Under the pieces are notes generated by a model that worked only from the letters and a program-made list of their open reading frames with translations, had not been told where the DNA came from and did not search any database. DNA of 34,224 bases from an uncultured bacterium (lineage in GTDB: Bacteria; Cyanobacteriota; Vampirovibrionia; Gastranaerophilales; Gastranaerophilaceae): NCBI GenBank assembly GCA_949293185.1, contig CASFCQ010000015.1, positions 1 through 34,224 of the forward strand, in the 5' to 3' direction. This document shows positions 6,171 to 31,747 of the stretch, one piece after another (position 1 is the stretch's first letter; each line of letters begins with the position of its first letter). Made by a program: the position numbers and the translations under genes.

Positions 6171-7688
6171 TTATGAGAACAATGAAGACTTGAAGGTTTC
6201 CAGATTTTTCTTCAATTCAGCCTTATCATTGTCATCCAAAGCAGCACCGCTATTGAGTTTTTCAGCCAATGCAGACATATTTGCTTCAAAATACTCAAAC
6301 CATTCTTTTTTGAATTTTTGAATTTTGGAATTATCAATATCGTCCAATATCCCCTCGTTAGCAGCAAAAAGGATACTAACCTGTTTTGCAACGCTCAATG
6401 GTGAATATTGCGGCTGTTTTAACACTTCTGTCAGTTTCTGACCTCTTAAAAGCTGATCCTGAGTAGCTTTATCAAGGTCTGATGCAAACTGTGCAAACGC
6501 TTCCAATTCTCTAAACTGCGCAAGGTCAAGTCTTAACTTACCGCCGACCTGTTTTGTTGCTTTTGTTTGAGCGGCACCGCCTACACGTGATACAGATATA
6601 CCTGCGTTAATAGCTGGTCTTATACCTGAGTTGAACAAGCCGGTTTCTAAGAATATCTGACCGTCGGTAATTGAAATTACGTTAGTCGGAATATACGCAG
6701 AAACATCGCCTGCCTGAGTTTCGATGATAGGAAGCGCGGTAATAGAGCCTCCGCCTAATTTGTCATTCAACTTACAAGCTCTTTCCAGCAATCTTGAGTG
6801 CAGGTAGAATACGTCGCCCGGATATGCTTCTCGTCCCGGCGGACGTCTTAAAAGCAAACTCATTGCACGATATGCCTGGGCGTGTTTTGTGAGGTCATCA
6901 TACACAATCAAAACATCTCTGCCCTGTTCCATAAACTCTTCCGCAATTGCAACACCTGCAAACGGTGCAATAAACTGCAGCGGAGCGGACTCATCAGCAG
7001 TAGCGGAAACAATGATTGTATAATCCATTGCGCCGAAATCCTCAAGTTTTTTGGCAAGCTGAGCAACAGTAGATGTTTTCTGACCGATTGCAACGTAAAC
7101 ACAGATAACGTTTTGACCTTTCTGGTTAATGATTGTATCGATTGCAATCGCTGTTTTACCGGTTTGTCTGTCGCCGATAATCAACTCACGCTGACCTCTG
7201 CCGATAGGAGTAAGGGCGTCAATTGCAGTCAAACCTGTTTGCAAAGGCTGGTGTACTGATTTTCTTGATACAATACCAGGAGCTACTCTTTCAACCGGTC
7301 TTGTTTTTTCGTAATGGATTTCGCCTTTGCCATCTACAGGACGTCCTGTCGGGCTGACGATTCTGCCGATAAGACCGTCACCTACCGGAACAGATGCAAT
7401 TCTGCCGGTTGTTTTAACAGTCATACCCTCTTTTATGTGTTGATATTCACCGAGAATAACAACACCAACATTGTCTTCTTCAAGGTTCAGTGTAATACCT
7501 AGTGTACCTTTGCCGTCTTCAAATTCAACAAGCTCGTTTGACATTGCATTACGCAAACCGTACACACGGGCAATACCGTCGCCGACTTCCAGCACAGAGC
7601 CGATATTGGAAACTTCCATCTCCGAGGAATAATTTTCAATTTTGGCTTTGATTATAGAAGTAATTTCTTCCGGTCTAATTGTTGCCAT
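6171..7688 (-). CDS. atpA: ATP synthase alpha subunit
   Basis: 505 aa, the usual family length. This is the non-catalytic nucleotide-binding subunit of the F1 hexamer. The N-terminal beta-barrel carries [15 protein letters not shown]. The P-loop is GDRQTGKT at 172-179, followed by [23 protein letters not shown]. The Walker B region is [16 protein letters not shown], then [20 protein letters not shown], and the family signature [17 protein letters not shown] is present. The C-terminal helical domain ends in [14 protein letters not shown]. It follows atpH by 58 nt. A strong hairpin lies directly after it. Confidence 0.98.
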
Positions 7689-11729: not shown

Positions 11730-13622
11730 TTACCCGTCTAGTTTGTCTGCCAGCGGTGTAGTTATATAGGAATTTAGTTTTTTATCAACCGCATTGAGAT
11801 TATCCGCAAGCTTTTGCAGTTCTTTTGACCAGACAACATTGTCCTTAAGATATTTTTCTGCCTTGTCTGAACTTTTATCCAGCTGCAATCTTATCGCATC
11901 TTCCAGCATTTTGTGAGCACAATCTATCACTTTATCATAATCAATTTTCATCTTACCGTCTTTTGATACATCTACAGCACCATGCTGAATAAAATAATTA
12001 TGCTGGAGCATATTTCTTGCCCTGTGTGCATTTTCAAAATCAGGACCTTTTAAAACATAAGCGGTTAAATAAGATGTTATAACCTGTTTTTCTTTTAACG
12101 GAGAGTAGAACCCTGCTTTTGTCAATTCATCAAGCATAACAAGAGCACCGGCATCAGCTTTGTATTCTTCTATTGTATTTTTGCTTACTCCGAGAGCCTC
12201 CAGCCCGTCTTTTGGACCTAGAGAATGCACATTTTCATGCAATATTGTAAAATCCTGCAGCGCTTCTACATCAAAATATTTATGCTGTGATTTATCAAGC
12301 AGAGCATTCAGCATTTTTTCTTTATTATTCGAATATTTTGCCATTCTCATTTGTCTGTGATAAACATTTCTTTTGCCTCCGCCTGTTTGTACGGACAGCT
12401 TATCGTTGTTCGGAAGGTTTGAAGCAATGGAGATTGCACCTCTGTATGCGGCATACTGACCTGTCATATTTACAATATCTGCATCAACCATTGTTTGTTT
12501 ATTATCTTTATTATTTGATATAGATTGTTCATATTCGTCGTTAAACGGCATTTTTGAAGCCATAAAAGGAAGAAAGTTTTTTATTTTTAGAATATAATCA
12601 GTACCTTCTTTATTAACTATACCGACTCTAACCCCGAGAGAATCTTTTGAGTAAGGGGTTATACCGTATTTATCAAGCAATGCAGAAAGTTCTTTATTTT
12701 TCCTTACTGTTTGAGTCATTCTGTCATCGTAACATTCTCTGCCAATAGTAAACTCCAACGGAGTATCCTGCAATGCTGCCCATTTTTTATCAGCAAGAGC
12801 GTCCATATAGGGATTATTCATCATCAATGCATTAGCCTGCAAAAGCAAATATCTGTTAAAATCATCATTTGTCGATGTCATTGCTGCAGCCTCTAGTTCA
12901 CCGGCAGCCTGTGAAAATTCATCTTTAAAATAATCAGTGTAATCTACAGCTTTGAGCTTTTTTCCGTCTCTTAAAACAACAGAACGCTGATTCAAAATAT
13001 TTTGCACCTCTTTTTGCTCGCCGTTGTTGAGCATATCAATCAAAATTTTATGGAACTCTTTTTCTGACAAATCCTCAGGATAAAAACCTTTCCCCGGAAG
13101 CTCTTTCATATTTTTTACAAGAACAACCGGCTTTGCATCAACGGTTTTTGCTATTATACCTTTTTGGGCATCATACAATTTCTTTGTTAAAAAAGCTTTT
13201 TCATTGCTATTTGCTATTTCATTTTCAAGATATTTTTCAAAAGGAAGATTATGAATGTTATCGAGCCTTTTATACACGGAGTCAAAGATATTAGCCGCTT
13301 TCACAAGATGTTTGAGCGCCTCTTTATCACCATCTTGCAGATTTTGGTAAGCAGAAGAGTTTTCATCAATCATACGAAACTCGGTGAATGCTTCCGGAGC
13401 AAGACGCTTTTGCAGCTCTTTCATTGAATAGTTAAGCGCAAAATCTTCATTATTTTTTTTAGATGATTTAAAATTAATGTTAGAAATACCGTAATGCGGC
13501 ATCAATTTAAGATTTGTTTGATTTAAATTTTCACAGTAAGATGCGTTATGGTTATCTTTGAGTAAATTATTGTTTTGTAAACTTCTAATATTATAATTAT
13601 TGTTTATTGATGAAATTTTCAT
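11730..13622 (-). CDS. M49-like (dipeptidyl-peptidase III-type) zinc peptidase
   Basis: 630 aa from the ATG at 13622, chosen because GAGGG lies just before it; an in-frame start at 13667 lacks such a site. The zinc motif is H462-E463-N-V-H466 in FTILHENVHSLGPKDG, followed by I-E485-E486-Y-K-A489-D490, which matches the HExxH...EExxAD arrangement of M49-like hydrolases. Classical DPP III has HExxxH, so this belongs to the variant branch. The segment GGGKRNVYHRQMR also resembles this family. No signal peptide is seen; the first 50 residues are Asn-rich and end in NINFKSS, like the tail on the pgi at 20215. It is monocistronic. Substrate unknown; peptide hydrolysis is inferred. Confidence 0.75.
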   Translation of the reverse strand: MKISSINNNYNIRSLQNNNLLKDNHNASYCENLNQTNLKLMPHYGISNINFKSSKKNNEDFALNYSMKELQKRLAPEAFTEFRMIDENSSAYQNLQDGDKEALKHLVKAANIFDSVYKRLDNIHNLPFEKYLENEIANSNEKAFLTKKLYDAQKGIIAKTVDAKPVVLVKNMKELPGKGFYPEDLSEKEFHKILIDMLNNGEQKEVQNILNQRSVVLRDGKKLKAVDYTDYFKDEFSQAAGELEAAAMTSTNDDFNRYLLLQANALMMNNPYMDALADKKWAALQDTPLEFTIGRECYDDRMTQTVRKNKELSALLDKYGITPYSKDSLGVRVGIVNKEGTDYILKIKNFLPFMASKMPFNDEYEQSISNNKDNKQTMVDADIVNMTGQYAAYRGAISIASNLPNNDKLSVQTGGGKRNVYHRQMRMAKYSNNKEKMLNALLDKSQHKYFDVEALQDFTILHENVHSLGPKDGLEALGVSKNTIEEYKADAGALVMLDELTKAGFYSPLKEKQVITSYLTAYVLKGPDFENAHRARNMLQHNYFIQHGAVDVSKDGKMKIDYDKVIDCAHKMLEDAIRLQLDKSSDKAEKYLKDNVVWSKELQKLADNLNAVDKKLNSYITTPLADKLDG

Positions 13623-13986
13623 GCTTCCCTCTTCTTTTGCGGTGATATTATTATAAGACGTTAACAAAAATTATTTTGTCAGTTAAAAATATAAATCACA
13701 AAATATATACAAAACTTAAAGTATTTTGAAATAAAGCTTTAACATAAAGCTATTTAGGGACTGATATATATCTTTCCATCAAACATTATTAAAAGATAAG
13801 CATAATGTCGTTCCTGTTTCGAAATCTTACAACCGGCAAGACTCTGAAACAAGTTCAGTACAACAATTTTAGCTATTATTAGTGGAATTTGCTACATAAG
13901 TCCTGTTATTTAAATCGTGATTTTTTTCTTGATTTAGTATATAATTTTTATTAATTGAGGATAAAAGCAAAAATTTTGAGTTAACA
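13623..13986. other. Divergent intergenic region with a dispersed repeat
   Basis: About 360 bases with no supported gene, between the M49-like gene (minus) and rex (plus). They contain an AGCTTTA/TAAAGCT hairpin (13735-13741 with 13745-13751), the dispersed repeat at 13757-13816, imperfect inverted sequence at about 13807-13864, and a TATAAT box at 13940-13945 that probably serves rex. An open frame on the minus strand at 13869-14069 runs through rex and is a shadow. Confidence 0.6.
13757..13816. repeat. Dispersed intergenic repeat, copy A
   Basis: This stretch begins GGGACTGATATATATC and ends in ATAATGTCGTTCCTGT. It matches 33901-33962 closely, with an identical run of more than 20 bases ending in ATAATGTC. 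Its core is a 7-bp inverted repeat, ACATTAT (13783-13789) with ATAATGT (13802-13808), and the sequence between the arms is also conserved. The following bases (to about 13864) form a weaker inverted repeat. It is intergenic like the other copy. Confidence 0.75.
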
Positions 13987-14607
13987 ATGAGTAAAAATAT
14001 ACCGGAAAAAGTTTCTAACAGATTGACTTTATACCACAGTATTATGGTGGAGTATATAGAAGCAGGCATCGAAACAATTTCTAGCCCTCAAATTGCACAA
14101 AGGCTGGGTATTGATGATTCACAGGTGCGCAAGGATTTTAAACTGTTGAATAACGCCGGCAAATGCCGTGTAGGATATATGGTAAAAGATTTAAAGGATT
14201 CAATTGAAAAGACTCTGGGGTTTTCAAAAACCAAAGATGCTTTTATTGTCGGCTCCGGGCATTTGGGGCTTGCGCTGGCAAAATATGACAGTTTTAACAG
14301 CTACGGATTGAACATACTCGCACTGTTCGATAACGACCCCCAAAAAATTGATATTCAGGTAAATAACAAACAGATTTTCCATATATCAAAATTACCTAAT
14401 CTTGTACAAAGGCTCGGAGTTGAGATAGCTATTTTGACAGTACCCAGACAATCCGCACAACAGGTAGCAGACTTTTTAATTCAATCAAATATAAAATACA
14501 TCTGGAATTTTACTCCAGCAGTGTTAAAAGTTCCTCCTACAGTTAAGGTATGGAACGAAAACCTGATGGGCAGCTTTTTACAGTTTGCGTGCAAAGATAT
14601 AGTATAG
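13987..14607 (+). CDS. rex: Redox-sensing transcriptional repressor Rex
   Basis: 206 aa. Rex represses fermentation and respiration genes and is released from DNA by NADH. The N-terminal winged helix (about 8-75) includes ISSPQIAQRLGIDDSQVRKDF. The Rossmann domain has GSGHLG at 89-94 and FDNDP at 114-118. The C-terminal helix that swaps in the dimer is LMGSFLQFACK. A TATAAT box at 13940-13945 gives a leader of about 35 nt. The gene is convergent with tolC-like (6-nt gap). I did not find a convincing Rex operator (TTGTGAA inverted repeat) in the window's promoters, so its targets lie elsewhere or are diverged. Confidence 0.93.
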   Translation: MSKNIPEKVSNRLTLYHSIMVEYIEAGIETISSPQIAQRLGIDDSQVRKDFKLLNNAGKCRVGYMVKDLKDSIEKTLGFSKTKDAFIVGSGHLGLALAKYDSFNSYGLNILALFDNDPQKIDIQVNNKQIFHISKLPNLVQRLGVEIAILTVPRQSAQQVADFLIQSNIKYIWNFTPAVLKVPPTVKVWNENLMGSFLQFACKDIV

Positions 14608-14613
14608 ACTTAT

Positions 14614-15936
14614 TTACAAATTCTGAGGATAAAGTTCAAACTCCTCATTGTTAACCTCTCTCAAAAAGTCTATCCAATCAGTATAGTAATCAGTCAGTGC
14701 AGCAATATATCCTGTTACAATATCCAGATAAGACTGCTGCATAACGATTACGGTTGTTAGGTCTGTTCTGCCTGCGTTATAGTTCTTTTTGGAAATATCT
14801 ATAAGCTCTTGCGAATCTTTTATAAGCTTTTGTTTGTAAAACAATAAATTAGTACGAGAAGTTGCAAATCTGTCATAAGCAGAGTTTAAATCTTTAAGCG
14901 CTTTATTTTTTGCAGATTCATAGTCTATTTGAGCCTGTTCAATCCTCAGCTTTGCGTTTTTAATCTCTGGCTTGTAAGTATACAAAACAGGGATATTATT
15001 TATTCCCGCACCTGCATACGCTCCAGGTTCAAAATGTCCTGTATCGCTGTGAGATTGAGGCAGATATGAGTACCCGCCCAAAATTTCGACATCCGGTATG
15101 CGCTGACGTTCAACTATAGTTAAGTTCTTTTTAGCGATATCAATATCTTGCTTTGCTGCACGAATATCCAGCCTTTTTTCCAGTGCTCTTTGTGATATCT
15201 CATCAAAAGCCGGTATTGGTGAGTTAACGTCAGGTGTTTTTAAAGAAATAAAAACTGTTTCATCAGGAAGATTATCCTCCTGTGTATCATAAACTATCAA
15301 AGAATCTTCCTTAAGATTCAAAGTTTTATTAAAATTATTACGTGCGGTAGTCACATTGGTTTTAGCGGAATTTATTTTAGTTTCCAGCTGATTTATTGCT
15401 ATTTGTGTCTGAATTACCTCGGTTTGAGCAGCCGGATTCGTTTTATATTTTTTCTGTGCAATATTTAAAAGCTCTTCTAAAAGATTTTTTTGTTCTAAAA
15501 GATTATTGAGTATTGTTTTTGCACCGACAAGATCCGCGTAGGTTTCTCTAACGTCCATTTCCAGTGTAAATTCAGATAGCTTAACATCCAGTTCTTTTTT
15601 ATATAGTGTTGATTTTGCAAGATTTTTACGCGGAGCGCGTTTGGCAATTTCAAGAGTTTCGGAAATACCTATTTGTTGCGGTTCGCTTTTACCTGCGTTG
15701 CCAAAGTTATAAAAAATATTAACATCAGGATTTTTTAACCTGTTTGCGCTTTTTATATCATTTTTTGCCAGTTCTACGTTTATTCTTGCGGATTGCAAAT
15801 CAAGATTGTTTGACAAAGAAAGCTCGATTGCATCATCAAGATTAATTTTTTTATACCCGTCTGCATAGCATAGAGGGTTTAGTGTTATTAATACGGCAAT
15901 AACTGTGCCAAAAGCAGTATATAGTGTTTTTTTCAT
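14614..15936 (-). CDS. TolC-family outer membrane efflux protein
   Basis: 440 aa. A signal peptide (MKKTLYTAFGTVIAVLI..., cleavage probably after CYA at 24-25) leads to two related outer-membrane efflux repeats of long helices, about 30-220 and 245-430. The start of each repeat shows a typical pattern (INLDDAIELSLSNNLDLQSA and FDEISQRALEKRLDIRAAKQ). Proteins of this family form trimeric channel-tunnels for type I secretion or RND/ABC efflux. No membrane-fusion or pump gene is adjacent; instead it follows the AsmA-like gene after a 4-nt gap, so the two are co-transcribed. This pairing suggests an envelope biogenesis or export role. Its substrate cannot be read from the sequence. Confidence 0.9.
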   Translation of the reverse strand: MKKTLYTAFGTVIAVLITLNPLCYADGYKKINLDDAIELSLSNNLDLQSARINVELAKNDIKSANRLKNPDVNIFYNFGNAGKSEPQQIGISETLEIAKRAPRKNLAKSTLYKKELDVKLSEFTLEMDVRETYADLVGAKTILNNLLEQKNLLEELLNIAQKKYKTNPAAQTEVIQTQIAINQLETKINSAKTNVTTARNNFNKTLNLKEDSLIVYDTQEDNLPDETVFISLKTPDVNSPIPAFDEISQRALEKRLDIRAAKQDIDIAKKNLTIVERQRIPDVEILGGYSYLPQSHSDTGHFEPGAYAGAGINNIPVLYTYKPEIKNAKLRIEQAQIDYESAKNKALKDLNSAYDRFATSRTNLLFYKQKLIKDSQELIDISKKNYNAGRTDLTTVIVMQQSYLDIVTGYIAALTDYYTDWIDFLREVNNEEFELYPQNL

Positions 15937-15940
15937 TATT

Positions 15941-18900
15941 TTATTCCGCTGATTGTGTTTCCTGCTGTGTTGTTTGCTGTTGTGAATTGTCTTTTGATTC
16001 TTTGTACAACTTTAAAATTCCGCCGATTGCTTTTACAGCTTTGTTTTCTTTTAACTGTTGTACTTTTTCATTATTCTTTACAGCGTCTTTGATATTTTCT
16101 TTTGTTTGCTGTACCTGCTGCTGAATCTGTTCTTTATTAATATTATTTTTTACTTCTGTTTGTTGTGTAAGTTCAGCTTGTTCTTCCTTAATTACCTCCG
16201 GCGTGTTCAACCACTTAAATCCGTCAAAAGCAGAAGCGGGTTTGTTCAAGTTTCCGTTAAGTTTTACCTTAAACGATTTTGAGCCTGTTTGTTCGGGAGT
16301 CAACGGAGGAATGGACTCAAGCACAGTTTTATTTGCAGCTTCATTAAATGTATTTATGGCAGAAGCTATTTTTGTGCCAAAATTCGGAATCAAAGCAGCA
16401 AATTTTTCAACTGAAAGATTTGCAACCGGTCCGAGCGCTGTTATTACATCGTTAGAGAGCGAGCCCAGAATTTGTATATTAGAATCCATTGAAATAAGGT
16501 TAATACTTCCGTCTAAAAGCAATGACATATGCGGTCCTGACATTTTAACCTGTTGTAGTACGGAATTACCGCCTTTAAAGACAATATTACCTTTAAGAAA
16601 AGAGAATTTGCCGGTATTATAAGGAGATACCGTATTTACAAGAGAGCCGAGTTTTGTCTTAACAAAACTTTGAGCAAGGAGATTGTCAGCCTGCAGGAAC
16701 GACTCAAAACGTCCAAGACTGCCTAATTGACCGTCTTTAAGTTCAAAGTCGGCTTTTCCGTTCAGGGATTTTATTTGCTGTTCATAAGTAGCACCGCTGA
16801 GTTTTACATCAGCATTAAAATCAAGATTACTTTGCACCTGATCCTTTAGCCCTGTAAACACTGTAACTATTTCATTTGCATTAATTTTCTGTCCTTTGAG
16901 TTTGGCGGTTAGCGCTGTTGTTTTGACATTATAGCTCACATCTGCGTTAAGAGTCCCGCCATATACATTTGTTTTTAGGTCAGGAATCTTTATAACATCA
17001 TTAACCAATGTAAAATCACCTGTAACATCAGCAGCTACAAGGTTTCCGCCAATTTGTTTCATTGTAAATTTTTGAATATCAGCGCTTCCGTTAGCAATTT
17101 TTACCGGCAGCATATTAGCGTTTGAAGCTCCGGAAGAAGCACTTGAGGCTGAAGATTGCGGCATAAGAGCATTAATTTTATCCATTGCCGCAAAAAGATT
17201 GTCGACGTTAAGGTCAAGGCTTGACAGTTTCATCGATTTTATTACAAATACATTGCCCAGAGTTGTTGAAGCATCTGCAATAATATTGAGTACGGTTTTA
17301 TTGATATCAAGATTTTGAATGTTTGCACTGACTGTATTGTCGTTAAATTCCAAATCAACCCCCTGAACTTTTGTCAGTATTGAAGGCAGATTGATATCTT
17401 TTATTGAGAAAAATCCTTTATAAGACGGGGCATTAAATGTGTTGGTAATATTCAAATCTCCTCTAGTGCTAAGTGTTGCATCAGGCATAAGAGTATGAGA
17501 CAGTACAACAGGTTCTGGAACAGAGAATAAAAGTTTCATTTGCGGATAATTTGATGAAACATTTGAGATAGTTCCTGTAATACCCGCAATTTTAGCTGCA
17601 CCTTTTTTATTTTTATCAAAGTCTTTAGTCAGCGCTTTAGAAGGCAGATAAAGAGCTGCGTCCGATATATTTAAATTGTCATTTGAATAAAGCAATTCTG
17701 CATTAACAAGCCCATTTTTGCCTGTCATTTTTTTAACACTGACGGGTGAAAAGTAGTTATTAGCATCGGGATATGCCTGCGCTTTTACTTCTATTTTTTG
17801 AGGGTTTCCGGTAATTATCGCACTCAAAGGAATAGAACCTTTTGTACCTATAAAAGCTCTTGTTTCTTTGGGGAGTAGCGAGCTTATATCCCCTGCTTTT
17901 ATTGAACCGTCAGCTGTTATATTTATTTTCATATCGCTAAGATAATCTTTTATGCTGCCTGATACAGTTACTTTTGAAGAATTTAAAATAACATCGAACG
18001 GATTGATAACAGCCTGAACAGGATCAACATCGAGCTTAGCCGAAGGGATACTCAATGATAAAAGCGGCATCGGAGATTTAGTTTTGAGCAAAAATTTGTT
18101 CAAGGCAACATCGATATCAGGCTTTATTTCAGAAAGTTTGCCTTTTAATATAACATCGATATTCAGTATACCGCTGTTTAGAACAAATGACTGCTTTGCC
18201 GATGCGGGAGCAAATGCATTAAAAATAGGAGCAATGTTAATATCACCCGAAGTTAATGAAATATCAGTATCAGAAGATGAGGATACAGAGCCTTTTGCTG
18301 TTACTTTTGTTCCGTTAATCAGAGTGTGCGCATTTTTTATATTTAATGAATTGTTAGAAAAATCAATATCTGCAGTTATGTCATTTATTGTGACAGGAAT
18401 AATTTTGTGAGCAATTGAACCATCCGCAACGTTAAAAGAGCCTGATGATTCAAAAGTTTTTAAATCGGTTTTTACATTAAAATCCGATTTTATGTAACCG
18501 GTTACTTTAACTGCAGCCAGGTCATTTTGCATATTCAATGAGTTCAAAAGAGCAATTGCAAAATTTTGAATGCTGGAAAAGCTTATTTTATCAGTTTTTA
18601 AATTTATATCGAACTTTGTTTTTCTGCCTGTTTTTACATTTGCCTTTAATGAAGCTTCTTCATTCCCGCTGACAAAAATTTTGGAATCAATATCTGTCTC
18701 ATGTCCTTTGGAAAGCAAATGAAAATAACTGTCCGGCAGCTTTGAACCGTTAAGTTTTATGCTTAATTTATCTATATTCAAATACCCGTCAAGATCAACA
18801 TGTCCCTTATGCTCTTTTGCTGTAATATCTGCTTTAATATCAGCTTTAGGATCATATTTGACAAGTTCTTTTACAAAATCAATTTCAGGTAAAACAACAG

Positions 18901-19621
18901 TTTTGTCAGCCTGTGTCTGAGAAGTTTCCACTGCAGGCCAAAAGCTTGCAAATTTTACATCATAATTTAGATTAACTTTATCATTAACCAGAATCTTTCC
19001 GTCAGCTGTTATTCTGAGATGTTTGTTAACAACCGCTTTATCCAAAACAAAGTTGTTTCCCTTAAGAGTAAATGTATTTGATGATTTTTTATCTTTTAAT
19101 AAAAGGTCATAGTTTTTTATTGTCACAACCGGCAGAGATGAAGATATTTTTACGGGGAGTTCCTGAGTTGTAGTTTGCGGAGTTTGTCCGGATTGTTCAA
19201 TATTTTTATTGATATAATCGACTATGTCCAGCTGTCCGTCAGATAAAAGCGCAACATTAACGACCGGAGTATCAATTGTGATATCGCTTATTTTCAGTGT
19301 TTTTAAGATTATTGGCAGTATAGATATTTTCACCTGCGCATTATTCAGGCGTACAATTTCATTACCGTCAGGATAAGTCAAAGCTGCATCTTTTATACTT
19401 ACTCCGGCCTTTAGGGAAGGTGTTGTCACAAGCCTGATATCCTGTGCATCAAATTTTAATTTTACGCTTTGTTCAACAATATTTTGGATTACGGTTTTGT
19501 AATCATTAAGATTTATCAGTTTGGGAAGAGCAAAAACAAAGCCTAAATATAAAACAAAGACTACGCCTAAAACAACAGAAAGAAATATCTTGTGCCATTT
19601 TGAAAATTTTATAATATTCAT
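15941..19621 (-). CDS. AsmA-family envelope protein (1226 aa)
   Basis: A single N-terminal membrane anchor (about 12-33, FLSVVLGVVFVLYLGFVFALP) is followed by an AsmA N-terminal domain (LINLNDYKTVIQNIVEQSV, then LKAGVSIKDAALTYPDG and INDITADIDF). The long remainder is beta-rich with repeated LDVDNL, LNVDADV and NINIAPIF-like elements, as in the AsmA/TamB/YhdP class, thought to form a lipid-carrying groove between inner and outer membranes. The AsmA C-terminal domain is at about 930-1130 (LKGQKINANEIVTVFTG and LKDGQLGSLGRFESFLQ). A Gln/Lys-rich tail follows (about 1150-1226). It precedes the TolC-like gene by 4 nt. A transport role for lipids is inferred from the family, not shown here. Confidence 0.88.
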   Translation of the reverse strand: MNIIKFSKWHKIFLSVVLGVVFVLYLGFVFALPKLINLNDYKTVIQNIVEQSVKLKFDAQDIRLVTTPSLKAGVSIKDAALTYPDGNEIVRLNNAQVKISILPIILKTLKISDITIDTPVVNVALLSDGQLDIVDYINKNIEQSGQTPQTTTQELPVKISSSLPVVTIKNYDLLLKDKKSSNTFTLKGNNFVLDKAVVNKHLRITADGKILVNDKVNLNYDVKFASFWPAVETSQTQADKTVVLPEIDFVKELVKYDPKADIKADITAKEHKGHVDLDGYLNIDKLSIKLNGSKLPDSYFHLLSKGHETDIDSKIFVSGNEEASLKANVKTGRKTKFDINLKTDKISFSSIQNFAIALLNSLNMQNDLAAVKVTGYIKSDFNVKTDLKTFESSGSFNVADGSIAHKIIPVTINDITADIDFSNNSLNIKNAHTLINGTKVTAKGSVSSSSDTDISLTSGDINIAPIFNAFAPASAKQSFVLNSGILNIDVILKGKLSEIKPDIDVALNKFLLKTKSPMPLLSLSIPSAKLDVDPVQAVINPFDVILNSSKVTVSGSIKDYLSDMKINITADGSIKAGDISSLLPKETRAFIGTKGSIPLSAIITGNPQKIEVKAQAYPDANNYFSPVSVKKMTGKNGLVNAELLYSNDNLNISDAALYLPSKALTKDFDKNKKGAAKIAGITGTISNVSSNYPQMKLLFSVPEPVVLSHTLMPDATLSTRGDLNITNTFNAPSYKGFFSIKDINLPSILTKVQGVDLEFNDNTVSANIQNLDINKTVLNIIADASTTLGNVFVIKSMKLSSLDLNVDNLFAAMDKINALMPQSSASSASSGASNANMLPVKIANGSADIQKFTMKQIGGNLVAADVTGDFTLVNDVIKIPDLKTNVYGGTLNADVSYNVKTTALTAKLKGQKINANEIVTVFTGLKDQVQSNLDFNADVKLSGATYEQQIKSLNGKADFELKDGQLGSLGRFESFLQADNLLAQSFVKTKLGSLVNTVSPYNTGKFSFLKGNIVFKGGNSVLQQVKMSGPHMSLLLDGSINLISMDSNIQILGSLSNDVITALGPVANLSVEKFAALIPNFGTKIASAINTFNEAANKTVLESIPPLTPEQTGSKSFKVKLNGNLNKPASAFDGFKWLNTPEVIKEEQAELTQQTEVKNNINKEQIQQQVQQTKENIKDAVKNNEKVQQLKENKAVKAIGGILKLYKESKDNSQQQTTQQETQSAE

Positions 19622-19750
19622 AACCGCCCCTTATTTATAACCGTAATTTATTTTAGCAAAAATACACCATATTGGGTATTTATGATAGCAATTTTCAACA
19701 AAAATGTTATAATCTTTTATTATAAATAATTGATATAAGGAAATTTATTG

Positions 19751-20218
19751 ATGGCTGACAATTATGAATTTATTACCTGCCCTGCTTGCGGCAAAATTAT
19801 GAAAAAAGTTTATCTTGAAGACCAAAACTTTATGGTTGATATCTGTCTTGACGGCTGCGGAGGTATCTGGCTGGATAACAGAGAACTTAAAAAACTCGAT
19901 GAGAAAAAAGAAGATATTACTCCTATTGCAGAAGCTAAAAAAGGCAAAGAGTATATTAAAGTGGATACAAATGCAGAAAGAGAATGTCCAATCTGCCACA
20001 AACCAATGGTTAAAAATCACGTCAGCGCAAAACAGGAAATAACAATTGACGAATGTTATTTCTGCGGCGGAAAGTTCTTCGACCACAGCGAGCTTGAAGC
20101 AATGAGAAACCAGTACAATTCAGACGATGAAAGAATCGCCGATGTAAAACGTCTGGCAGAAAACTCAGATAAAATGCAAATTATTTTAGATACACTCCTG
20201 CACGAAGACAGTATTTAA
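19751..20218 (+). CDS. Double zinc-ribbon (zf-TFIIB-like) protein
   Basis: 155 aa from the ATG at 19751; a TTG three bases upstream is possible, as AAGGA lies 7-10 nt before both. Two zinc ribbons of the same kind are visible: C10-P-A-C13 with C-L-D-G-C-G-G-I-W-L-D-N-R-E-L, and later CPICHKPM with CYFCGGKFFDHSELE. The pattern CxxC...CxxCGG(I/K)(W/F)xDxxEL is the zf-TFIIB domain. Such proteins are common but of unknown function, perhaps nucleic acid or protein binding. The C-terminal 40 residues are helical and charged. It is convergent with pgi and overlaps its stop by 4 nt, with no terminator between. Confidence 0.82.
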   Translation: MADNYEFITCPACGKIMKKVYLEDQNFMVDICLDGCGGIWLDNRELKKLDEKKEDITPIAEAKKGKEYIKVDTNAERECPICHKPMVKNHVSAKQEITIDECYFCGGKFFDHSELEAMRNQYNSDDERIADVKRLAENSDKMQIILDTLLHEDSI

Positions 20219-21624
20219 GCGTTCAGGATTTTATTCACTTCTTTTTTATAAATGTTTACATGAGGCTGCAAAACCTCGGGCAATGTTTCCGGTTTTTCAG
20301 CCTTATTGTTTTGTGTATTATTCATAGCACGAAGCATCATGCCTGTATAAATAGTTTCAAAATGTTTTAACTCAATAAATTCTGCAATGGATTCGGGTGA
20401 AAGATCCTTCAGCTGAACAAGAGATACCGGATGACGCTGACAATATGCCTTTAGGCTGCCGTTCAATAGCGCATTATATGATTTGTATGCTTCCGAACCG
20501 TTATTTTTTATTGCATTAAATGTATAAAAAGAGGTCGTATTCCCCTCATCCAGGTCGCTTTCTGTCGAATTGTGCAAAAAAGCAGGTCCTACCAAATCAC
20601 CGCTCACTTTGTAAAGAGACTTATGGGATTCTTTCTTTAGCTGTGTATTCCATAATGTTGTACCTTCAAACCTGTCACCGAAATAATAATCATACTGATT
20701 TTGCTTGCCGGATTTAACACATTCACTATTAAAAGCTGCACGCTGCAATGCCGGATTTGATTTAAAATCAGGATTCAAAAATCTTTTTTGTGCTTTCAAT
20801 GAAGCTGCCAAAAGCCTTTCCATATCATTTTTCGGCAGCCCGCAATAAGCCAGAGCAATAAGAGTATGGTCATCAAATGCCCCGAATCTGCCTCCGCAGC
20901 CGTCATGGATTATGGCGCATTTGTACCCCTTTTCATTGGCAAGTTTGCGCAACTTACTTTTGTTTTCATCTTTATCAGTGATACATATATAGTTTGTAAA
21001 GCTGTCGCCCATAACCTTGCGTACATAATCAAAATCAGTTGAAGGTTCAAGGGTTGTACCTGATTTTGATGCAACCATTATTGCAGCAGTGTTCTTATCT
21101 CCGAGCTTTTTTACAAAAGCCTCTTCATCTTCCGGAGTTACTGCCGATAAAAATACAGCTTTATCTGATAATCCGAACAAAGAGAGCATATTCTCGATTG
21201 TATGCCTTGAACCGCCTATACCAATGATACCGAGTTTTCCGCCGCCGTTTTGTTTTAAAGTATCGGCAAGAGCATAAATTTCATCCAGCCTTTTCAATTG
21301 AGTTTTAGGAAGCTCTTCTATCCAGCTTAGCTCCTGATTGGGTTCAAACTCACGCCCTGCAAGTTCTTTTGCCTGTTCAGCAGCAAGTAGCGCATATTTT
21401 TGCTGCATTTTATCCGCTGGCAAAGTATTAAAATATTTTATTTCAATATTTTGAAGAAAATTTATATTATTCATGTAAGCAATCAAAGTCGGAATCTGCA
21501 CACAAACTGCTGCATTAATATCATTATCCTGTTCCTTTTGAAGAACAACTGGTTGTTGCGCAGACTTAAACCCTGTATATGATTTATTTTGAACTAAATT
21601 GTATGGCAAAATTTTATTAATCAT
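20215..21624 (-). CDS. pgi: Glucose-6-phosphate isomerase (first copy, N-terminally extended)
   Basis: 469 aa. It interconverts glucose 6-phosphate and fructose 6-phosphate. The sugar-phosphate loop is ASKSGTTLEPS. GCGGRFGAFDDHTLIALA, the Glu motif TQLKKESHK, the His motif FLHNSTESD and the Lys motif LQPHVNIYKK match the residues used by PGI for proton transfer and ring opening. A second, clearly diverged pgi lies at 30449. This copy has about 30 extra N-terminal residues containing YTGFKSAQQ, a motif also seen near the N-terminus of the M49-like protein. No ribosome site precedes the ATG at 21624. It follows the 190-aa secreted-protein gene by 36 nt on the same strand. Confidence 0.88.
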   Translation of the reverse strand: MINKILPYNLVQNKSYTGFKSAQQPVVLQKEQDNDINAAVCVQIPTLIAYMNNINFLQNIEIKYFNTLPADKMQQKYALLAAEQAKELAGREFEPNQELSWIEELPKTQLKRLDEIYALADTLKQNGGGKLGIIGIGGSRHTIENMLSLFGLSDKAVFLSAVTPEDEEAFVKKLGDKNTAAIMVASKSGTTLEPSTDFDYVRKVMGDSFTNYICITDKDENKSKLRKLANEKGYKCAIIHDGCGGRFGAFDDHTLIALAYCGLPKNDMERLLAASLKAQKRFLNPDFKSNPALQRAAFNSECVKSGKQNQYDYYFGDRFEGTTLWNTQLKKESHKSLYKVSGDLVGPAFLHNSTESDLDEGNTTSFYTFNAIKNNGSEAYKSYNALLNGSLKAYCQRHPVSLVQLKDLSPESIAEFIELKHFETIYTGMMLRAMNNTQNNKAEKPETLPEVLQPHVNIYKKEVNKILNA

Positions 21625-25444: not shown

Positions 25445-26068
25445 ATGGTCGCCGGTATTAATTCGTTAGGTGTAAACAAACAACAGAACAATGCTTTTTT
25501 GAAGGGAAATAAAAGCAGTGAAAAAGCATTAAACAACTTAAAATACCTCACTGCATCAGGGGTTATTATCGGAGGGGGAATTGCTGCTGGTAAAGCAGTT
25601 TTGAACAATCCAAACAACAGCTTTGTCACATCAATGGATAAAAATATGACTAAAGGGGCTGAATTCCTTGCTAACGGCGGTTTAAAAGATGTTTATCAAA
25701 AAACCAAAAATTATGCCGGCGAAACATTTTCCCGCATAGAAAGCAAACTCCCCAATAACAACACTATGAATAAAATCGGTGACTATTTAAGCAAAGCAAA
25801 AAATATATTCAATAAAGGTTTAAACCAAGCAAAGAAATTTGCTGCACCTCTTTGGAACAAGATTAAAGGTCCTGTAACAGGTTTATTGAATACTGTAAAA
25901 AACAAATCTGCAAACTTATTAACAAAATTTGCAAAACTGCCCGGACAATACAAAGTTGCCGGAGTAATCGGAGCTTTAGTTCTCACTTCCGTATTAGCAC
26001 TTTTAGGCGAAAATGCTTATCAAAACGGAAAAATTGATCAAAAATATGAAGATGCATTAAAAATGTAA
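25445..26068 (+). CDS. Hypothetical membrane-associated protein
   Basis: 207 aa, family not recognised. After an Asn/Gln-rich N-terminus (MVAGINSLGVNKQQNNAFLKGNKSS) come a Gly/Ala hydrophobic segment at about 39-57 (LTASGVIIGGGIAAGKAV), a long Lys/Asn-rich amphipathic region (about 65-165), and a second hydrophobic helix at about 172-192 (VAGVIGALVLTSVLALLG). There is no conventional signal peptide. AAAGG precedes the ATG, and a terminator closes the gene, so it is monocistronic. The amphipathic middle could lie on a membrane. The AFLKGNKSS segment faintly recalls the FKS tails of two other proteins in this window. No function is proposed. Confidence 0.72.
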   Translation: MVAGINSLGVNKQQNNAFLKGNKSSEKALNNLKYLTASGVIIGGGIAAGKAVLNNPNNSFVTSMDKNMTKGAEFLANGGLKDVYQKTKNYAGETFSRIESKLPNNNTMNKIGDYLSKAKNIFNKGLNQAKKFAAPLWNKIKGPVTGLLNTVKNKSANLLTKFAKLPGQYKVAGVIGALVLTSVLALLGENAYQNGKIDQKYEDALKM

Positions 26069-30448: not shown

Positions 30449-31747
30449 GTGATTACAAAAAATCCTGATATTACAACAAATTTTAGCGGTGTTGATTTTT
30501 CAAAATACACATCTAAAGTATCCAAATTCGTGAACGAATTTTCTAAAAGAGCTAACCAAAAAGGTCAATTCCTTAACTGGGTTAACCTTCCACAGGAACA
30601 AATCAAAAGAGCGGATGAAATTTATGAACTCGCTTCTAAACTAAAAGCCCAAACAGGTGTTAAAAAATTGAGCGTAATGGGTATAGGCGGTTCAAAACAC
30701 ACGGTTGAACATATGTTATCCATCAACGGATTGAATATAAAAGGCGATGTTGTAGAATTTTATTCCGATGTTGATTCAGCCAGCCTTGAAAGATTCCTGT
30801 ACAAATTAAATGACAATATTTTAGAATCAGCATTTATGATTGCATCTAAATCCGGTTCTACTTTCGAAACTAAAGACGGATTCTTAAGAGTTCTCGCAAT
30901 GCTGGAAGATGCTTATAAGGCAAAAGGTCAGTCTTTAGAAGAAGCTAAAAAATCAGCAAACAAACACTTTATCGCAGTAACAGATGCTAACGCAGAAAAA
31001 AGCGAGCTTAGAAGAACATCTAACGAAAACAGCTGGCTTGGCGACTTATTTATCCACGATGATGTAGGCGGAAGATTCTCTGCGTTTGATGACCATGCTC
31101 TTTTTGCTCTTGCCTGGGCAGGTATGAAAAAAGAAGATATGATAGAAATGCTCAATGCTGCTCAAGAAATGTCAACTATCGCTTTGAGTACGGATTTTGA
31201 CAACAACGATGCATTAAAAGAAGGTATCTTCTGGGCTGACGCAAAGCTTAACGGCATTGAAGCGTCTGTTCACCAGTATATGGGTTCTATTTTTGAAAAC
31301 ACTGTTTACTGGCACGCTCAAATGCAAAACGAATCAGTTAAAGACACACTAAAACAGGTTGCAAAAGTTCCTGACGCTATGCACCACAGTGCAGAAGCTC
31401 ACTTTAACCCTGCTAACAAGCTTGTTTTTGCTTTGACTGTTCCTGTAGACAACGGTGTATGCAGAGAAAACGCAGAAGCTTATATTGGAGCATTGACAAA
31501 ATCTTACGAAGTTACAGGCGCAACTTTTGTTGAAAGAATCGCAACAAAAGGTATGGGCTTAACCCCCAAAGCTGCCGGTGCAATGACGATGTTAAGAGCT
31601 TATGCAACAGTTTATCAGGAAATCGTTGAAAAAATTATGACAAACACAGCATTTCCGGAAGTATTAGACAGCGTATTGCAGCCTCATGTTGAGTTCTACA
31701 AAAAGAATCTCAAAGGAGGAGTTGTAGTTCCTGGAAGAATTTCTTAA
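30449..31747 (+). CDS. pgi: Glucose-6-phosphate isomerase (second copy)
   Basis: 432 aa from a GTG start at 30449 with AAAGGAG 8 nt upstream. The glycolytic isomerase motifs are clear: GIGGSKHTVEHML, SKSGSTFE (phosphate loop), VGGRFSAFDDHALFALAW, the Glu motif MQNESVKD, MHHSAEAHFN with the ring-opening His, and LQPHVEFYKKNL with the catalytic Lys. It shows no extra tail, unlike the other pgi at 20215. Both carry the key residues, so both may be active. The codon use is that of a well-expressed gene, and the region ends in a strong terminator. Confidence 0.93.
   Translation: MITKNPDITTNFSGVDFSKYTSKVSKFVNEFSKRANQKGQFLNWVNLPQEQIKRADEIYELASKLKAQTGVKKLSVMGIGGSKHTVEHMLSINGLNIKGDVVEFYSDVDSASLERFLYKLNDNILESAFMIASKSGSTFETKDGFLRVLAMLEDAYKAKGQSLEEAKKSANKHFIAVTDANAEKSELRRTSNENSWLGDLFIHDDVGGRFSAFDDHALFALAWAGMKKEDMIEMLNAAQEMSTIALSTDFDNNDALKEGIFWADAKLNGIEASVHQYMGSIFENTVYWHAQMQNESVKDTLKQVAKVPDAMHHSAEAHFNPANKLVFALTVPVDNGVCRENAEAYIGALTKSYEVTGATFVERIATKGMGLTPKAAGAMTMLRAYATVYQEIVEKIMTNTAFPEVLDSVLQPHVEFYKKNLKGGVVVPGRIS

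Follow-up and report, generated by a model that had tools for sequence, protein, structure and literature searches.

A phenylalanine-centered N-terminal linear motif shared by unrelated proteins of a Candidatus Gastranaerophilales lineage

Tailed enzymes encoded in the window

The window analyzed here, the whole 34,224-nucleotide stretch of Candidatus Gastranaerophilales DNA in contig CASFCQ010000015.1, encodes an M49 / dipeptidyl-peptidase III-like protein and two glucose-6-phosphate isomerases (products of pgi genes). The M49-like protein and one of the isomerases start with a tail that contains Phe-Lys-Ser (Table 1), at the places where an earlier, sequence-only reading of this DNA had located it. 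Here we show that such tails belong to a real N-terminal linear motif of this lineage, with the consensus [IVP][SN]F-x-[GSA], where Lys is the commonest residue at x. About 4 in 100 proteins of this bacterium carry a tail that ends in the motif, far above the chance expectation. The consensus is wider than the pattern of the sequence-only reading, [ITN]xFK[SG], and the tailed isomerase that it named is an off-consensus example.

Table 1. Coordinates of the tailed enzymes, their tails and the motif-like sequences in the window
Feature	Position	Strand	Basis
M49 / dipeptidyl-peptidase III-like protein with N-terminal tail, 630 aa from ATG	11730..13622	-	open reading frame call; PDB match
N-terminal tail of the M49-like protein, residues 1-48, MKISSIN..., Asn-rich	13479..13622	-	
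Motif INFKS of the M49-like protein, residues 49-53 from ATG	13464..13478	-	
Glucose-6-phosphate isomerase-like protein with N-terminal tail, 469 aa	20215..21624	-	homology to the PF00342 protein at 30449-31747
Predicted disordered tail of the tailed isomerase, to about residue 57	21454..21624	-	AlphaFold2 pLDDT <50, model residues 1-56 (Met1 absent from the model)
FKS of TGFKSA, tailed isomerase, residues 19-21	21562..21570	-	FK[SA] kept in 8/13 distinct orthologue N-termini
NFSG of the core isomerase paralogue (30449-31747), residues 11-14	30479..30490	+	

The assignment of the first protein to M49 is supported by its match to a dipeptidyl-peptidase III structure (PDB 5zum, E 6.5e-18). As listed, its open reading frame (ORF; 11730-13667) opens at a TTG; the ATG at 13622, which yields a tail starting with MKISSIN, as in other motif-bearing proteins (hereafter, carriers), is the likelier start. 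The motif of this protein lies directly ahead of the conserved domain, as proposed in the sequence-only reading. Residues 60-628 align to residues 3-575 of a tailless paralogue that is 53% identical. In the tailed isomerase, by contrast, about 35 residues separate the motif from the first ordered residue of the AlphaFold2 model. This isomerase has no Pfam match of its own, although it is homologous to the PF00342 protein encoded elsewhere in the window. The latter, described as lacking a tail, indeed has none comparable, but it contains NFSG close to its start. This NFSG could represent the motif itself or simply belong to the native N-terminus of the core isomerase; most core copies read from other genera have F-[ST]-G at this position. 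Conversely, a 207-aa protein (25445-26068) that had been offered as a weaker example does not contain the motif as later defined.

In two cases, M49 and the isomerase, a tailed accessory type exists alongside a core type without such a tail. Across 23 genomes of the genus, the tailed and tailless M49-like types were found in 8 and 22 genomes, respectively, and the tailed and core isomerases in 17 and 23, with types assigned by identity and alignment start and N-termini read directly for a minority only. Within the phylum sample, the tailed isomerase type occurs in this genus only. The genome encoding the window contains three divergent isomerase-type matches, the two in the window and one at G000:C21:4376-4942.

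Enrichment of the motif at N-termini

ORFs of at least 100 codons were called on 1.23 Mb of the same genome (56% of the genome), yielding 1045 ORFs, with gene starts throughout taken from a simple script. The pattern from the sequence-only reading was found in 21 of the 1045 N-termini compared with 19 of 2610 internal windows (p = 1.2e-3), and 300 shuffles gave a mean of 7.8 and a maximum of 16, so the enrichment that this reading anticipated withstood the check. An FK form, [VILPNS][SNT]FK[GSA], was fixed after the first 384 ORFs and then tested on the other 661. In these held-out ORFs, 20 matches fell in residues 2-80 and 9 beyond residue 100 (p = 1.2e-6), corresponding to densities of 3.83 and 0.59 per 10,000 residues; backward and scrambled versions of the motif showed no N-terminal enrichment.

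The wider form, [IVP][SN]F[KRGSATQ][GSA], was chosen after inspection of the data and, unlike the FK form, had no held-out test of its own. It occurs within the first 75 residues of 44 of the 1045 proteins, which represent 41 unrelated families, compared with 11 of 2610 internal 75-residue windows (p = 2.3e-15) and 3 of 1045 C-termini. When each N-terminus was shuffled 300 times, the mean was 6.6 and the maximum 14. With about 4 chance matches subtracted, the 44 carriers in 56% of the genome scale up to a set of about 70 proteins. The enrichment depends on the phenylalanine, as it was abolished when F was replaced with L, I, V, Y or M (45 vs 114). At the Lys position, amino acids not in the chosen class showed no enrichment in this genome (12 vs 28). 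Thirty motif copies are encoded by 28 distinct codon strings; therefore, the motif reflects selection on the protein and not the repetition of a DNA element.

The pattern [SN]FK[GSA] is also enriched in other species of the genus (14 vs 3, p = 6.3e-7), as estimated on a set of 319 ORFs; in a larger same-genus set (471 ORFs), some stretches from at least one genome overlap (L091, L189), so that two carriers were counted twice, whereas the 319-ORF set is free of this overlap. In the small sample from other genera of the family, recurrence is weak (wide form, 7 vs 8, p = 0.037; by protein, 7/326 vs 8/913, p = 0.07). No enrichment was detected in small samples from another family of the class (f2; 2 vs 4) or from the wider phylum (1 vs 3). 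Whole-genome counts with DNA patterns were too noisy for comparison of lineages. A stricter pattern for the shortest form, M[KN][IV][S/T]FxG, had 139 matches against 49 for the backward control in 192 genomes of the order, but it also catches the starts of ordinary beta-strands (for example, MKITFLG) and was not relied on. The motif is apparently undescribed so far: none like it was found in the open-access literature on Gastranaerophilales and Melainabacteria, as covered by titles and abstract starts in one library.

Identity of the carriers

Most carriers are orphans or diverged proteins. Pfam matches at E 0.01 or better were obtained for 10 of 40 carriers compared with 16 of 20 length-matched non-carriers (p = 7.5e-5); one of these controls (L084:8146-8487) is a borderline carrier (PSFKQ) that was kept as drawn and is also among the 40 carriers. 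The recognizable ones include a LysM-lysozyme-amidase, PRTase-CE, a protein kinase-like protein, RNase T, a CheR-type methyltransferase and AAA proteins, and a scan of 49 carriers added aminotransferase, PLD-like and HTH/sigma-like matches, with the matching member unspecified. A phmmer search against PDB returned nothing for three of the four carriers tried. A carrier-like protein (PAFKG) is encoded at L078:6389-7552, directly upstream of a FliF-like gene. Its GGGIHCMC stretch resembles those of arginine-deiminase-fold enzymes; the protein has only a weak DUF5674 match and no PDB match.

Anatomy and conservation of the tails

Counts for 56 carriers refer to a motif form slightly wider than that giving 44. 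In this set, the distance from the N-terminus to the start of the motif ranges from 3 to 70 residues, and 42 of the proteins have the motif start beyond residue 10. A second element, an M-x-I-x-x-[IVL] start, is present in 14 of the 56 carriers compared with 39 of the 989 other proteins (p = 1.5e-7). The tails are poor in acidic residues (Asp and Glu, 4.5% vs 10.3% in length-matched non-carriers), whereas Asn, Ser, Thr, Pro and Gln make up 36% of their residues (vs 26%). Gly alone is 6.9-fold over background at the last motif position. The tails do not resemble Sec signal peptides: by a simple window count, without a predictor, a 12-residue hydrophobic stretch is present in the first 35 aa of 8 of the 56 carriers compared with 23% of the 989 others.

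The motif was kept in all six orthologue pairs with at least 45% identity (motif identity 0.8-1.0), whereas linker identity was 0.30-0.42 in the four pairs with measurable linkers; the first eight residues were 0.38-1.0 identical. Lys can be replaced in relatives, where Ser, Gly, Tyr, Thr, Arg or His is found instead. A family of five proteins with 24-73% identity has only 19 invariant columns; these include S, F and G of the motif but not K. In the model of a member of this family, residues 1-5 have a predicted local distance difference test score (pLDDT) below 50 and the first strand starts at residue 7; a fold search with the 181-residue model returned nothing at E 0.001 or better. Thus, in two models, this one and that of the tailed isomerase, the motif is predicted to lie outside the folded domain. 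A sequence that is conserved yet unfolded has the look of a linear motif, with the evidence for conservation and disorder coming from six orthologue pairs and two models only.

Flagellar-type export genes

The genome that includes the window encodes FHIPEP (FlhA-type) twice at full length (868 and 726 bits), as well as two FliP. One gene set, at L078 7696-14911 (C33 of this genome), combines YscJ/FliF, a 337-aa protein in the place of FliG, FliH, FHIPEP and the ATPase (FliI). At L030 1170-4574 (C1 of this genome) is a group of genes that, from a reading of their sequences, seem to be FlgG-like, FlgC-like, lytic-transglycosylase-like and FliE-like; the family-level support for them is a PF00460 match at G000:C1:63075. 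Together, the two loci make up a second export gene set of flagellar type, in addition to the flagellar one. A third, partial PF00771 match (profile positions 301-654, in an open frame of about 490 aa) at G000:C50:6737-7795 recurs across the order beside full-length FlhA. One FliP is kept in each of ten other genera of the family and three f2 genomes tested, along with rod-like PF00460 matches, and no flagellin match was found in any of these genomes; therefore, a flagellin-less export apparatus has been kept.

Discussion

The sequence-only reading envisaged a short N-terminal motif, peculiar to this lineage, on proteins of different folds. That much is borne out by the enrichment, the conservation between species and the predicted disorder in two models. 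From these features, together with the position and composition of the tails, we infer a receptor, a targeting function and a destination; the role as a targeting, assembly or modification signal that had been suggested is likewise inferred. In our assessment, the best explanation, and a probable one, is a lineage-specific N-terminal docking or sorting signal. An unfolded tail would present the motif, [I/V/P]-[S/N]-F-[K, or mostly small]-[G/S/A], to one shared receptor, which would take or tether otherwise unrelated proteins to one place or machine. The longer tails would often consist of two short conserved elements, the M-x-I-x-x-[I/V/L] start and the motif, joined by a divergent, acid-poor linker rich in N, S, T, P and Q.

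Several observations weigh against this interpretation. The consensus at the Lys position is unsettled because amino acids not in the chosen class are also enriched there in the same-genus set (12 vs 13, p = 0.004). The tailed isomerase keeps FK[SA] in 8 of 13 distinct readable orthologue N-termini and lacks it in the other 5. Carriers do not cluster in the genome (3 adjacent pairs vs 2.0 expected), some of them, for example one with HTH/sigma-like matches, have no obvious reason to be relocated, and the gene starts come from a simple script. Finally, 3 of 11 internal matches are located at domain junctions of multi-domain carriers (L063:7685-9010, L077:12334-13356 and L077:7523-10024), so the N-terminal position is not absolute. 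At L063:7685, the motif lies between segments homologous to two separate neighboring genes, at L069:18090 and 18893; the motif may be carried along with its domain. Junction copies suit a docking motif but fit less easily with an export signal confined to the N-terminus.

A docking or sorting signal could take two main forms. In the first, to which we give a fairly low probability, the motif would bind a scaffold or an adaptor (among others, one for a protease or unfoldase) that gathers these enzymes inside the cell. This form would accommodate the cytosolic-type enzymes among the carriers (isomerase, dipeptidyl-peptidase III, aminotransferase, CheR, AAA, RNase T) and can tolerate the junction copies in multi-domain proteins; against it, the encapsulin family was not found in any of 17 genomes.

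The more specific form, in which the tail is a type III (flagellar-type) export signal, both elements engage the second, flagellin-less gate and the carriers are secreted, we regard as somewhat unlikely, even though the gate is the most interesting candidate destination. It draws on the duplicated FHIPEP and FliP, with one gene set at L078; on the retention of FliP and rod-like PF00460 matches, without a flagellin match, in the ten other genera; and on two carriers that flank the L078 gene set (6389-7552, PAFKG; 17700-18068, INFKA). Moreover, the tails recall early flagellar subunits in being unfolded, acid-poor and rich in N and S, with a hydrophobic element at the N-terminus (PMC8983047). 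The gate recognition motif (GRM) of FlgD is FLTLL, and at least 19 residues are required between the two FlgD signals for export (PMC8983047). The carriers depart from these rules: a hydrophobic residue follows at F+4, as in FxxxPhi, in 14 of 56 (25%) compared with a background of 30%, and in 27 of 56 F lies no further in than residue 24, so that about half lack the spacing. In addition, f2 has the gate (FliP in 3 of 3 genomes) but no motif enrichment, and motif density is higher in the genus in which flagellin is also present. Because of the missing FxxxPhi pattern, the short spacing in about half of the carriers and the f2 gate without the motif, we do not file the tails as type III signals. 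An extension of this scheme is a bacterial counterpart of transit peptides, in which a lineage-specific two-part N-terminal code would send numerous accessory proteins (duplicated metabolic enzymes and kinase-like, nuclease, peptidoglycan-hydrolase and orphan proteins) to the second, flagellin-less flagellar-type export machine retained by these uncultured cyanobacterial relatives of the gut; this is speculative and, on balance, unlikely.

Alternatively, the motif might be the recognition or cleavage site of a processing protease that removes the tail as a leader. The small last residue (G, S or A, by the definition of the motif, with the pronounced excess of G) and the variable length ahead of it would fit, but in several carriers the motif is at residues 3-5, leaving almost nothing to remove, and no protease was found, which makes this quite improbable. 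Still more doubtful is a structural or vestigial role, with the motif capping or docking on the following domain or marking old gene fusions. Such a role would explain the copies at domain junctions in three multi-domain proteins; however, the motif is common to 41 unrelated families, is of low confidence (predicted unfolded) in two models and precedes the first strand. Chance, the composition of an AT-rich, Asn/Lys/Phe-rich proteome or wrong start codons, which might be suspected given that the motif was first spotted by eye and genes were called simply, is hardly credible in the face of the shuffles, internal windows, C-termini, scrambled motifs and held-out data.

If the motif is an address label, its sequence offers a rule by which to catalog the proteins directed to a single location by a widespread, uncultured gut lineage; the function of most of these proteins is obscure. 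Partial flagellar gene sets in gut Melainabacteria have been interpreted as genome reduction (PMC3787301). Should the destination be the flagellin-less export gate, those partial sets could instead form a functional secretion apparatus whose substrates can be predicted.

Among known systems, encapsulin cargo peptides and other short cargo-loading motifs similarly place a short motif on an unfolded end to gather cargo. The carriers are, however, far more numerous than encapsulin cargo, and the encapsulin shell family (PF04454) is absent from all 17 genomes, including the one studied here. Flagellar rod and hook proteins, like the carriers, contain F-K-[S/A], in a GFK[SA]-like N-terminal stretch that is usually preceded by Gly and lies within the rod/hook domain; no match to this family was found among the carriers scanned one by one. 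The bipartite signal of FlgD (SIAV and the GRM FLTLL; PMC8983047) shares with the carriers a hydrophobic element at the extreme N-terminus, a polar linker and a Phe-based motif, whereas the carriers lack the FxxxPhi rule and the minimum spacing and are enzymes and orphans rather than subunits. In glaucophyte cyanelle transit peptides, Phe, mostly within the first 10 residues, marks import into the organelle (PMC2222254; PMC4510345). The carriers differ in that Phe is further in for most of them (42 of the 56 motifs start beyond residue 10), its context is fixed and the host is a bacterium. Both systems nevertheless combine a portable polar N-terminal tail, an important Phe and a distribution over many unrelated proteins in a lineage related to cyanobacteria (PMC2222254; PMC4510345).

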